From: Haloplanus rubicundus
GTDB lineage: Archaea; Halobacteriota; Halobacteria; Halobacteriales; Haloferacaceae
Assembly (NCBI RefSeq): GCF_003342675.1
Contig: NZ_CP031148.1
Location: 1,116,001-1,180,000, forward strand
Reading direction: 5' to 3'
DNA: 64,000 bases
The notes below the pieces were generated by a model that made no database searches, was not told the origin of the DNA, and worked only from the letters and a program-made list of their open reading frames with translations. Shown piece after piece: positions 7,286-10,936 of the stretch (within the stretch, counting starts at the first letter, position 1; every line of letters starts with the position of its first letter). A program made the position numbers and the translations under genes.

Positions 7286-7645
7286 TCAGCGACCCAGCAC
7301 CGGCTCTTTGAGCGCGACGACTTCGCTCATGATGGCCTCGACGTGTTCCTCCGGGACCCCGTTCTTCTCCAGCGCTTCCTGCAGGTAGCGCCCGACCAGG
7401 TCGAAATGGTCCTCCTCGATCCCCAGATGTGCGTGTGCCTCGCGCATGTTCGCCCCCGAGTATTCGACGGGGCCGCCGGCGACGGCGCTGATGAACTGCA
7501 CCTGATGGGAGCGGAGTTCGTCCATATCCATGCCGTCGAAGTACGGTTCGAGTCGCTCGTCGGCGAGCACTCGCTCGTAGAAGTCGTCGACCACCGATTC
7601 GACTGCGTCTCGACCACCGATATCCCGATAGATCGTCTGCGACAT
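7286..7645 (-). CDS. Truncated haemoglobin (group I-like globin)
   Basis: A 119-residue truncated globin. The opening SQTIYRDIGGRDAVESVVDDFYERVLADE is the usual start of this family. The DFYERVL helix carries the B10 Tyr and the segment MREAHAHLGIEEDHFD supplies the proximal His of the F helix. These small haem proteins bind oxygen or nitric oxide in the cytoplasm and often act in NO detoxification or oxygen sensing. The start at 7645 is preferred over an upstream ATG at 7678, which adds only non-globin residues. It is convergent with 6610-7155 and lies downstream of the frameshifted regulator on the same strand. Confidence 0.92.
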   Translation of the reverse strand: MSQTIYRDIGGRDAVESVVDDFYERVLADERLEPYFDGMDMDELRSHQVQFISAVAGGPVEYSGANMREAHAHLGIEEDHFDLVGRYLQEALEKNGVPEEHVEAIMSEVVALKEPVLGR

Positions 7646-7708
7646 TGCGTCGCGGGATGATCGACACGGCGTGGGCATACGGCCGTCGCCTAGGATGCTC
7701 GGTCCTAT

Positions 7709-8350
7709 TTACGTTCGTGTGGTCGAATCACACGGCCGAGCGGGGACGATCTGATCGAACAGTTTCGTCTGTGCGGTCGACAGGTGTTCGACGAACGTGG
7801 AGACGGCGATGCCGAGTTCGCCGGCCACGGCGTCGGCCGTCGCACGCTTCGGCGAGTCGAAGTAGCCCATCTCGTGGGCGGTTTCGAGCACCTCGAACTG
7901 CCGGTCGGTGAAGGCGCTCCGGTCGGCGACGAGGAGCGTCCGGTCCTCGTCGCCGGACCGCACCAGCCGCCGCACCGTACGTCGGCACAGCACGCTCGGA
8001 GCGCCGCCGTGACGGTGCGGAGCGTCTCGCGGTCGGGCACGATGAGGGTGAGACGGAGACGACCGCCCTCGGCCCGAATCTCCCGGACCGGACAGCCGTG
8101 GTTCGGCACGCGCGAGCACGGACACTCGTCGTCGTGGCTGAACCGGTACACCGACCGCGACCCGTCCGCGAACACTTCCTCGGCGTCGTCGACCGTCGCC
8201 CCCGCGTCCGTCCCCTCGACGGTCACCTCGCCGACGATGCCCGCCCCCCCGGTCGACCGCCACCGACTCCACCGTCCCCGCCTCGCTCAGCGCCGCCGCC
8301 GGACAGCCGGCCCCGTGGAGTTCGAACTGGGCGTGAATTCCTGTCGCCAT
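7709..8350 (-). pseudogene. Bacterio-opsin-activator-type HTH regulator, interrupted by two frameshifts
   Basis: Three consecutive pieces of one protein lie in two frames. MATGIHAQFELHG begins at 8350. The frame then shifts at a run of seven C (8244-8250; six would restore it) into a piece containing CPCSRVPNHGCPVREI and LRLTLIVPDRETL. It shifts back near 7976-7984, where one base seems to be missing, into a C-terminal helix-turn-helix (FTDRQFEVLETAHEMGYFDSP, then AVAGELGIAVSTFVEHL). This is the architecture of haloarchaeal Bat/HTH-10 regulators, with a sensor-like N-terminus and a C-terminal DNA-binding domain. The shifts compensate, so the gene may be intact with two sequence errors, or decayed. 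It is divergent from the 8469 module. Confidence 0.75.
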
Positions 8351-8426
8351 GCGTCCCGGACATCGATCCCGAGTGATAAGCGACGCCGTTCGTGTCGCCG
8401 CCGCCATCCTGTGATCTGCCTAAACG

Positions 8427-8437
8427 GTTAAGATATC
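8427..8437 (+). promoter_or_regulatory. TATA-like box of the 8469 module
   Basis: GTTAAGATATC lies about 35 bases before the ATG at 8469 in a locally AT-rich patch of the divergent intergenic region shared with the frameshifted regulator. It is the only TATA-like stretch there. Confidence 0.5.
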
Positions 8438-8468
8438 TCACATCATCGTTCACTATGGACATATCCTC

Positions 8469-9125
8469 ATGGCAGACCCAGTCAACGAAATCGTCAAAGA
8501 AATCCCGTTCGCCGAACTCGTGCGCAAGGCCGCGCTGGCGGTGGCCGACGGGCAGACCGCACTCGACCTCAACTCGATCCAGACCGCACAGACGCTCGCG
8601 GACATGGAACTCGACGCCGGCGCCGTCATCCTCGGCATCGTCGAGGAGACGGACGAGGACGGCAACGTCACGAACGTCTCGACGCTGACGAACGACCAGC
8701 CCCTTTCGCTCCTCGCGTACGGCGTCACGCCGACGTTCTACGAGTTCAGTGAGACGGAGATCGATCTCAAGTTCTGGGTTCGGTGGCACACCCGAAGCAC
8801 GCACGTCGAGAGCGATTCGACGTTCTCGCGGGACATGCGCACGTCCTACGAGCAGTCCCGCAAGAAGTACGGCGGCGGCGGTGGCGTCGGTCTCAACCTC
8901 GGCTTCTTCTCCATCGGGGGGAAGGGCGGCTACCAGAAACAGGAGGTCAAGGGCGAACGCGAGGTGGAACTCGACGTGCGCACCCACTCCGAGTACGACA
9001 GCCGCGTCTACGGTCTGGACGCGAGCGCGGCCTGCCGGTTGAAGACGACGCTGGTGCCCAAGCCGGCGCCCGACCGCTCGGTGCCCGACGTCATCACGCG
9101 GCCGGCCGAGGGTGGGTCGTCGTGA
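8469..9125 (+). CDS. Beta-rich protein, first gene of an unknown four-gene module
   Basis: 218 residues. The N-terminal amphipathic helix (IPFAELVRKAALAVADGQTALD) recurs in the next gene as a close variant. A beta-rich body follows with PLSLLAYGVTPTFYEFSETE and IDLKFWVRWHTR, then a Gly-rich GGGGGVGLNLGFFSIGGKGG stretch and a strand-rich end. The helix-then-beta layout reminds me of the DUF2589-type proteins of bacteria, whose function is unknown; that resemblance is from memory and unproven. No signal peptide or membrane span is seen. The stop overlaps the GTG of the next gene, so it is translationally coupled to it. Confidence 0.75.
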   Translation: MADPVNEIVKEIPFAELVRKAALAVADGQTALDLNSIQTAQTLADMELDAGAVILGIVEETDEDGNVTNVSTLTNDQPLSLLAYGVTPTFYEFSETEIDLKFWVRWHTRSTHVESDSTFSRDMRTSYEQSRKKYGGGGGVGLNLGFFSIGGKGGYQKQEVKGEREVELDVRTHSEYDSRVYGLDASAACRLKTTLVPKPAPDRSVPDVITRPAEGGSS

Positions 9126-9505
9126 GCGGCGCCGAACGCTGGGTCGCCCGCCCCCTCGGCGAACTCGTCACCGGCGTCGCCCGCGCGGTGGCGGAGGGAC
9201 AGACCGAACTCGACCGCGCTTCGCTCGCCACCCGGCGCGACGTTCGGCGGGCGGTCGAGGACGGCGACCTGGAGACGCCCATCGAGACGCCGTGGTTCCG
9301 ATTCTCGGGCGTCGAGGCCGACCTGAACGTCTCGCTGTCGATGCGGGGGCGCCCGGAACGCGACGAAAGTGGCAAGATTCGGGCCTACCGGCCGACGCTC
9401 GTCGCCGCGCCCACCGACCCCGAGTTCACCACCCGTACCGACTACGACGTGGCGGCGTCGAGTCGCGTGAGCCTCGACATCGTCCCCGTCCCCGGCCCCG
9501 AGTAG
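9122..9505 (+). CDS. Shorter paralogue of the preceding protein
   Basis: 127 residues. It repeats the plan of the previous protein: an amphipathic helix (LGELVTGVARAVAEGQTELD) and then a beta-rich part in which FSGVEADLNVSLSMRG matches FSETEIDLKFWVRW of its neighbour. It ends with strands (AASSRVSLDIVPVPGPE). It lacks the Gly-rich insert. The GTG start at 9122 overlaps the upstream stop (GTGA), and the next gene starts directly after its TAG. The two paralogues probably form a hetero-oligomer; that is inference from coupling and similarity. Confidence 0.75.
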   Translation: MSGAERWVARPLGELVTGVARAVAEGQTELDRASLATRRDVRRAVEDGDLETPIETPWFRFSGVEADLNVSLSMRGRPERDESGKIRAYRPTLVAAPTDPEFTTRTDYDVAASSRVSLDIVPVPGPE

Positions 9506-10633
9506 ATGCCCGGCGACGACTTCCGGTTCACGAGGGAACTCACCGCGCTCGACGCCACGAAACTCGACCGGGCCGAGGCCCGCGAAGTGGAGGGGCTCTA
9601 CCGGGCCAAGGAGTATCTCGCCACCGAGTTCCGTGATCGGCTGATCGAGGTCGAGAGCGAACGCGACCTGCTCCGGACGAGAGTCGACCGCCTGCAGGCC
9701 GAACGCGACTCCCTCCGGGAGCGCCTTGACGGCCTCGAAGCCGACCGGGGGAGCGTCGCCCCCGACCGCCTCGTCGCGTCGCTCGGCGACGCCCTCGCGA
9801 GCGCCCGCGACGACCTCTCGGCGGCCGAGTACGCCATCGGTCGGGTCGAAGTCGACCTCAAGGCGAACGTCGTCGGCGGCGACGACGGCCCGCGGTTCCA
9901 GCTCCCCGACCTCGCCGAGCCGGTGAACCGCGAGACGTTGAGTACGCTCCGCTTCGACCTCCGGCCGGCGGCTCCTGCGGAGGAGACGACCGTCTACGAT
10001 CCGATCCCGGACGTTCGCGACCGCTCGCTGGCCGAGGCCCGAGGGGCCGTCCAGCGGGCCGGCTTCACCGTCGGCGAGGTGACGACCGAACCCGGCGACG
10101 CCGACGACGTGGTGCTCGATCAGTTCCCGTCGCCCCGGTCCGTGGCGGAGCCCGGCACGCCGGTCGATCTGACCGTCTCGGAACGCCGCGAACTCGACGT
10201 GCCGAGCGTGATCGGACTCGACCTCGAGGACGCGGCGGCGGCGCTCGACGACGCCGGCCTGACGGTCGGCGCCGTCGACGCCGAGGCGCGCGACGCGCCG
10301 GCCGACGCCGTCGTCGGTCAGTCCCCGCCCGCGGGCGAGTCCGTGCCGGTCGGGACCGCCGTCGATCTGACCGTCTCGGCCGGGTCGGCAGCGGCCGACG
10401 CGGCGTCCGAACCACCCGAGTCGGACGGGCTCGAGGAGCGAGCGACCGTCGACCTCGAAGCCGTCGACGGAATCGGGCCGACGTACGCCGACCGCCTGCG
10501 CGAGTCGGGCGTCGCGGACGTGGCGACGCTGCTCGACCGCGACGTGGAGGCCGTGGCCGAAGTGACCCGCGCACCCGCGAGTCGGGTCGAGAACTGGTTC
10601 GTCGACGCGAGGCGGTTGCTGGAGGACGAATGA
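9506..10633 (+). CDS. Coiled-coil, double PASTA and helix-hairpin-helix protein
   Basis: 375 residues with an unusual domain string. Residues 15-82 form a charged coiled coil. Residues 85-155 look like a third copy of the module helix plus strands (RLVASLGDALASARDDLS, then VEVDLKANVV and TLSTLRFDLRP). Residues 165-226 and 229-291 are two PASTA domains, with the markers IPDV, A...L...GF.VG and QFPSPRSVAEPGTPVDLTV, then PSVIGLDLEDA and GQSPPAGESVPVGTAVDLTV. Residues 318-372 are a helix-hairpin-helix unit (VDGIGPTYADRL). PASTA domains usually sit outside bacterial cells on kinases or penicillin-binding proteins. Here there is no signal or membrane anchor, so a cytoplasmic scaffold is more likely. 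Its ATGA overlap couples it to the next gene. Confidence 0.8.
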   Translation: MPGDDFRFTRELTALDATKLDRAEAREVEGLYRAKEYLATEFRDRLIEVESERDLLRTRVDRLQAERDSLRERLDGLEADRGSVAPDRLVASLGDALASARDDLSAAEYAIGRVEVDLKANVVGGDDGPRFQLPDLAEPVNRETLSTLRFDLRPAAPAEETTVYDPIPDVRDRSLAEARGAVQRAGFTVGEVTTEPGDADDVVLDQFPSPRSVAEPGTPVDLTVSERRELDVPSVIGLDLEDAAAALDDAGLTVGAVDAEARDAPADAVVGQSPPAGESVPVGTAVDLTVSAGSAAADAASEPPESDGLEERATVDLEAVDGIGPTYADRLRESGVADVATLLDRDVEAVAEVTRAPASRVENWFVDARRLLEDE

Positions 10634-10872
10634 CCGACACACACCTGCTCGCCTTCGCCCCGTCGAGCGACGAGGCGGCGATCCGTGCCGTCCTCGACCG
10701 GGTCGTCGCCGCGGGCGGCGAACTCGTCGTCGTCGCCGGCGCGGGGGTGGTCGTTCGCGCGCCACAGGCCGTGGCGGACGCGGCGGCGGCCCACCCGGCG
10801 GTGGCCCACGTCGGCGGCGTGGCGCTACCGGATCGGGAGCCAGTTCGGATCCGCCGGCCGCCCCCGGAGTGA
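10630..10872 (+). CDS. Small propeptide-like protein closing the module
   Basis: 80 residues. The pattern HLLAFAP, then a helix (DEAAIRAVLDRVVAAGGELV), then VVVRAPQAVADAAAAHPAV and AHVGGVAL resembles the small ferredoxin-like fold of subtilase propeptides and I9-type inhibitors, where a similar 'aP.av..l..hPgV' segment occurs. That is a fold-level guess. No protease gene is near, so it may be a free chaperone, inhibitor or binding module for the three preceding proteins. It overlaps the PASTA gene by four bases (ATGA). Confidence 0.65.
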   Translation: MTDTHLLAFAPSSDEAAIRAVLDRVVAAGGELVVVAGAGVVVRAPQAVADAAAAHPAVAHVGGVALPDREPVRIRRPPPE

Positions 10873-10936
10873 GGGGCGGGGCGCCACCGCCCGATTGAGA
10901 ACTGTTCACACCACCCACGTCCGGCGATTACGCCCA

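Follow-up and report, generated by a model that had tools for sequence, protein, structure and literature searches.

An enzyme-free four-gene module of Haloplanus rubicundus, shared by archaea and bacteria, that may encode a cytosolic protein assembly

The window is a stretch of 64,000 nucleotides from the haloarchaeon Haloplanus rubicundus (contig NZ_CP031148.1, positions 1,116,001 to 1,180,000). It contains four adjoining open reading frames (ORFs), here called P1 to P4, directly upstream of topA. The positions given to them in an initial annotation, made from the sequence alone, were confirmed. The features of the locus are listed below in window coordinates. Confidence in structural models is given as the predicted local distance difference test (pLDDT).

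8469..9125, plus strand: P1, 218 amino acids; helix at residues 14-45, short hairpin at 54-74, very long beta-hairpin at 90-128/161-198; DUF2589-like unit (ORF call, profiles, AlphaFold2 with pLDDT 75).
9122..9505, plus strand: P2, 127 amino acids, beginning with GTG; a short P1 paralogue with a helix and strands (profile-profile comparison, 99%).
9506..10633, plus strand: P3, 375 amino acids; coiled coil, P1/P2-like unit, two PASTA domains and a helix-hairpin-helix (HhH) (ORF call and Pfam).
9617..9751, plus strand: coiled coil of P3, about residues 38-82 (sequence pattern; coiled-coil Pfam models match many family members).
9752..9976, plus strand: middle unit of P3, residues 83-157; homologous to P2', the bacterial counterpart of P2, and via P2' to P1 and P2 (profile-profile comparison).
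10001..10396, plus strand: two PASTA domains of P3, residues 166-297 (PF03793, 5e-26, two stretches; PASTA part of NF033483).
10451..10612, plus strand: HhH of P3, residues 316-369 (PF14520, 9e-7, above the cut-off).
10630..10872, plus strand: P4, 80 amino acids; predicted beta-alpha-beta-beta-alpha-beta, subtilisin-propeptide (I9-like) fold with a conserved VGGV motif (model pLDDT 85, Z 10.2 to POIA1).
8420..8435, plus strand: probable promoter element, CTAAACGGTTAAGATA, 34-49 bases ahead of the P1 start codon.
8391..10903, no strand: block that is present or absent between conserved flanks, with globin-like and helix-turn-helix (HTH) genes on the left and topA on the right.

The four genes are tightly joined. 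P2 starts at GTG 9122 within a GTGA overlap with P1, the TAG stop of P2 directly abuts the ATG of P3, and P3 and P4 share ATGA; re-reading the sequence thus reproduced all three junctions as first described. The fixed product ratio proposed from these junctions does not follow from overlaps alone. P1-P4 are real genes under purifying selection, because the within-genus ratio of nonsynonymous to synonymous polymorphism (pN/pS) is low in all four. Selection is strongest on P1 (about 0.1), followed by P2 (0.2), P3 (0.3-0.4) and P4 (0.4-0.6). The core of the TA-rich element at 8420-8435, TAxACxGTTA, is kept in congeners whose remaining upstream bases differ, and the element is probably a promoter (B recognition element (BRE)/TATA). 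None of the four proteins has an N-terminal signal peptide or transmembrane segment (maximum 19-residue hydropathy 0.6-1.8), in agreement with the earlier claim that the module lacks an anchor. The products are therefore most likely cytosolic.

Within the genus, 5 of 12 genomes carry P1, which in every case is accompanied by the same P2-P4 and lies upstream of topA. In the congener L211, the DNA aligns to window positions 7293-8390 and resumes at 10904 with 33 bases between. The segment that was gained or lost therefore contains exactly the four genes. In L209, L210 and L212, contiguous alignment is found only from 10887-10919 onward. No direct repeats or target-site duplications of 8 or more bases are found at the block ends. 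The HTH-type regulator gene that adjoins the module (7705-8407, minus strand) contains two seemingly compensating frameshifts. Residues 47-129 of its 211-residue homologue (L041 3195-3830) are encoded in one frame and both ends in another.

Outside the genus, other haloarchaea (including Halorubrum and Salinigranum) carry P1, in one or two copies, together with P2, P3 and P4 in quite different surroundings, mostly ordered P1(-P1)-P2-P3-P4. A P1 profile search of 393 genomes from the phylum detects relatives in 41, methanogens included, and most of these loci contain the same four genes. A plasmid search and a scan of the genomes of 84,980 species extended the survey to Bacteria. Bacterial carriers belong to about twelve phyla and include Proteobacteria, Chlorobi, Chloroflexi, Nitrospira, Acidobacteria, Gemmatimonadota and Cyanobacteria, as well as Clostridia, Actinobacteria, Kiritimatiellota, Fibrobacter and others. 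By profile counts, all four gene types are present in 60 of the 68 loci from archaea. The figure for bacteria is at least 33 of 54 loci, many of which lie on short contigs. The order P1(-P1)-P2-P3-P4 is found in 53 of the 68 archaeal loci. The order P4-P1-P1-P2'-P3', where P3' is the bacterial counterpart of P3, is found in 29 of the 54 bacterial loci. These are counts of loci and not of independent events, since some are near-copies in which one genome was reached by two routes. Such conservation of the gene set and its order goes far beyond what chance would give. A conserved order in distant taxa had been set beforehand as a check on the module, and both gene set and order do recur in distant taxa in unrelated neighbourhoods.

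No extra gene recurs when the flanking ORFs of the module loci are clustered. When 98 neighbouring genes in bacteria are scanned with Pfam, only scattered families appear, the commonest being TPR (7). No enzyme was found within the module, as the initial annotation had stated. Cultured carriers include Halorubrum, Natronomonas, Methanolobus, Rhodoferax, Parerythrobacter and Pelovirga.

Several loci depart from the common arrangement. In a Comamonadaceae-type version (L164, L173, L176 and L184), an extra ORF of about 250-580 amino acids lies between two P1-like genes. A methanogen contains a divergent three-gene version (L109:3896-6235) with an extended P1, a short P2 and a third protein that joins the unit to a DUF4332/HhH tail and has no PASTA. 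Directly 3' of the module at L159:9508-12219, and in the L160 counterpart, is a gene for a large protein whose N-terminal part appears glycosidase-like and whose C-terminal part appears metalloprotease-like, both by eye.

Profile-profile comparisons indicate that one helix-plus-beta unit is common to P1, P2 and the middle part of P3. P1 and P2, previously proposed to be paralogues, match at 99% (P 1e-19). P1 matches P2' at 69% (P 4e-5), P2' matches the P3 middle domain at 95% (P 5e-8) and the P3 domain matches P3' at 87% (P 4e-6). Each of these comparisons beat 60 column-shuffled decoys. The bacterial P2' is thus the link that bears out the proposal that P3 contains the P1/P2 unit. Structure prediction of each protein had also been suggested. 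Among the first three proteins it gave a fold for P1, and the relation of P2 and P3 to P1 comes from profiles only. In the AlphaFold2 model of P1, based on 89 sequences, the helix at residues 14-45 and the short hairpin are followed by a long hairpin with strands of 38-39 residues. In a viral structure library, P1 matches one unnamed protein (E 5e-4, TM-score about 0.3). There are no significant sequence relatives of P1, P2 or P4 in the PDB.

The nearest named relative of the unit is DUF2589 (PF11655), in which a long helix, a linker and a 'PLL...P...I.E..ID.' strand follow one another as they do in the unit. The comparison of DUF2589 with the P1 unit by hhalign (75%, P 2.5e-5, 0 of 60 decoys as high) points to a distant relation. 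Weak matches to the family occur in 5 of 89 P1-family members (best E 2.4e-4). However, the window P1 has no Pfam match, and one P1b member scores 21.5 bits, below the 23-bit gathering cut-off. The link to DUF2589 made at first reading therefore stands as a distant profile relation and not as membership by Pfam match. In Parerythrobacter, canonical DUF2589 genes cluster apart from the module. A pair of them lies about 9 kb from the module copy of that genome, beside a gene for a small protein and one that is metalloprotease-like (L194:3045-6130), possibly a second uncharacterised system. The Archaeoglobus genes AF0414-AF0417, described as 'DUF2589 related', are upregulated with lactate (PMC3949148); they may correspond to P1-P4.

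The two PASTA domains and the HhH first noticed in P3 both score above the Pfam cut-offs (PASTA 90.8 bits against 23.2; HHH_5 29.7 bits against 27). PASTA is matched in 20 of 20 archaeal P3 proteins and HHH_5 in 19 of 20. Archaeal P3 contains one to several PASTA domains, and an HhH ends most haloarchaeal P3. Outside the archaea, PASTA-bearing P3 is found in Acidimicrobia and a deltaproteobacterium, and one Pontiellaceae version has P2' fused to PASTA-like and HhH-like parts. Most bacterial P3' consist of the coiled coil and the unit, without PASTA or HhH. As judged from these domain assignments, PASTA and HhH are therefore accessories and not the core of the module. In Methanosarcinaceae, giant P3 paralogues adjoin the module (L100:7050-11024, 1324 amino acids; L188:653-5161, 1502 amino acids), and the L100 paralogue contains about ten PASTA-like repeats.

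P4 is conserved in archaea and bacteria (82 non-redundant sequences). Its predicted model clearly has the subtilisin-propeptide fold, which agrees with the resemblance to a subtilase propeptide noted from its sequence. Foldseek matches it to subtilisin propeptides with probability 1.0 and TM-scores of about 0.6-0.7, and its Z of 10.2 to the inhibitor POIA1 extends over 70 residues. Other ferredoxin-like folds (ribosomal S6-like) score only slightly below (Z about 8), so the fold does not by itself establish common descent with propeptides. None of 17 P4 members has a Pfam I9 match, and by sequence a Proteinase K entry matches only at E 0.71.

In the P1 tree, archaea fall at three or more positions and the bacterial phyla are intermixed; between these phyla, P1a is 61-76% identical. 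The P1a of Parerythrobacter is 76% identical to that of Thermomicrobiales and 72% identical to that of Sandarakinorhabdus, a fellow alphaproteobacterium. This is not congruent with GroEL, for which Parerythrobacter is 85% identical to Sandarakinorhabdus and 60-68% identical to other phyla (the Thermomicrobiales match is a 68-residue fragment). The simplest reading of these sequences is that the module moved horizontally across domains. A phage or prophage origin was rejected: tblastn gave no phage match, IMG/VR no relative, and PHROGs weak or coiled-coil noise only. A plasmid element was also rejected, as the module was found on one plasmid only, from Sphaerotilus.

In Pfam, NCBIfam, PADLOC and PHROGs, nothing named is found in P1, P2 or P4, and only PASTA and HhH are named in the module. 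No description of the gene set was found in the open PMC papers searched, one of which mentions DUF2589-related genes in passing; a description elsewhere is possible. The suggestion that the system is undescribed is upheld within these libraries and papers. The unit on which the gene system is built is distantly related to DUF2589, a Pfam family that is itself uncharacterised. The systems closest to it in part are PASTA Ser/Thr kinases (PknB/Stk1) and penicillin-binding proteins, which share the PASTA pair with P3. Unlike these, the module has no kinase, transpeptidase or transmembrane segment, its products appear cytosolic, and PASTA is absent from most bacterial P3. Of the kinase models, only the C-terminal PASTA part matches P3. 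This includes the PADLOC model PD-T4-6, the sole PADLOC match, and a known defence system was rejected on that basis.

We lean slightly towards the reading that the module makes a cytosolic hetero-oligomeric protein assembly, a physical complex whose existence and stoichiometry we infer from the genes and predicted folds. This reading is the most economical because a unit that occurs several times is encoded together with a coiled-coil protein and a small partner resembling a propeptide, and neither an enzyme nor an export signal is present. In such an assembly, the products of the self-contained, horizontally transferred 4-5-gene module would come together in the cytosol. P1 (from one or two gene copies), P2 and P3 would pack side by side through their common helix-plus-beta-hairpin unit. 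The coiled coil of P3 would form a stem, and in many archaea P3 would also bring PASTA and HhH parts that may serve ligand recognition or docking. The free-standing P4 may be an assembly chaperone, or it may inhibit a serine protease of the host by which the assembly is matured or cleared.

Four points weigh against this reading. Because the loci were chosen via P1 or P3, the presence of that member is by design, and only the others count as independent evidence. Bacterial contigs often end early, and in some versions the profiles detect no P2 or no P3. The operon of Nitrospira includes a TPR gene that overlaps P3', so the module is not always closed. The P1 model is a monomer in which the hairpin tip has low confidence (pLDDT below 50 across most of 128-171).

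The main rival, which we consider unlikely, is a role in protease control or biological conflict. Here the DUF2589-like proteins would be adapters or scaffolds, P3 would sense a ligand via PASTA/HhH, and P4 would restrain a serine protease encoded elsewhere until a trigger such as a virus. This role would suit the predicted fold of P4, which subtilisin propeptides and POIA1, a free inhibitor of subtilisin, also have, as well as the patchy, horizontally moved distribution. However, a protease gene is neither in the module nor recurrently beside it, subtilases included, and the PADLOC match is limited to PASTA. Trypco2 (PF19631), an adapter of nucleoside triphosphatase (NTPase) conflict systems, was named for its co-occurrence with trypsin-like peptidases (PMC7159879). 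It matches 3 of 89 P1-family members weakly (best 0.011), and the likeness seems probable by eye. Against this, P1, P2 and P3 do not score above decoys when compared with one Trypco2 sequence, and no NTPase, vWA or peptidase partner is recurrently beside the module.

Somewhat less probable is a cytoskeletal element or granule coat, in which the P3 coiled coil would be a filament or tether and the P1/P2 units would coat an intracellular body. Coiled coils of variable length and the repeats of the L100 paralogue would suit a spacer, and the lack of enzyme and export signal is also compatible with a coat. Granule, gas-vesicle and cytoskeleton genes are, however, absent among the recurrent neighbour families. 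A membrane-active or pore-forming effector, in which the long P1 hairpins would oligomerise as a barrel neutralised by P4, is very unlikely. The top PDB rows of Foldseek for P1 are beta-pore stems and phage portal/collar hairpins, but every row has E above 0.05 and Z of at most 3.6, as expected of generic long hairpins. In addition, no toxin-family match is above threshold, and P1, unlike typical effectors, is conserved more strongly than the rest of the module. A chance or housekeeping cluster tied to topA, which lies directly 3' of the module and has a C-terminal HhH resembling that of P3, is refuted by module loci in completely different surroundings and by congeners with topA but without the block.

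Returning to the assembly, we judge it an even matter whether the module builds a new kind of cytosolic machine or particle. A single helix-plus-beta-hairpin unit would recur in it in three or four versions, joined by a subunit with a coiled coil and by a partner that resembles a propeptide, and it would have reached both archaea and bacteria via gene transfer. The module is enzyme-free, its order is kept, and it is found in some twelve bacterial phyla as well as in methanogens and haloarchaea. It must serve a useful purpose in unrelated cells, because the ordered set is kept across unrelated archaea and bacteria. The defined gene set, the congeners with an empty site and the cultured carriers make it experimentally tractable. 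That four to five genes move together among archaea and many phyla of bacteria suggests an overlooked protein assembly.
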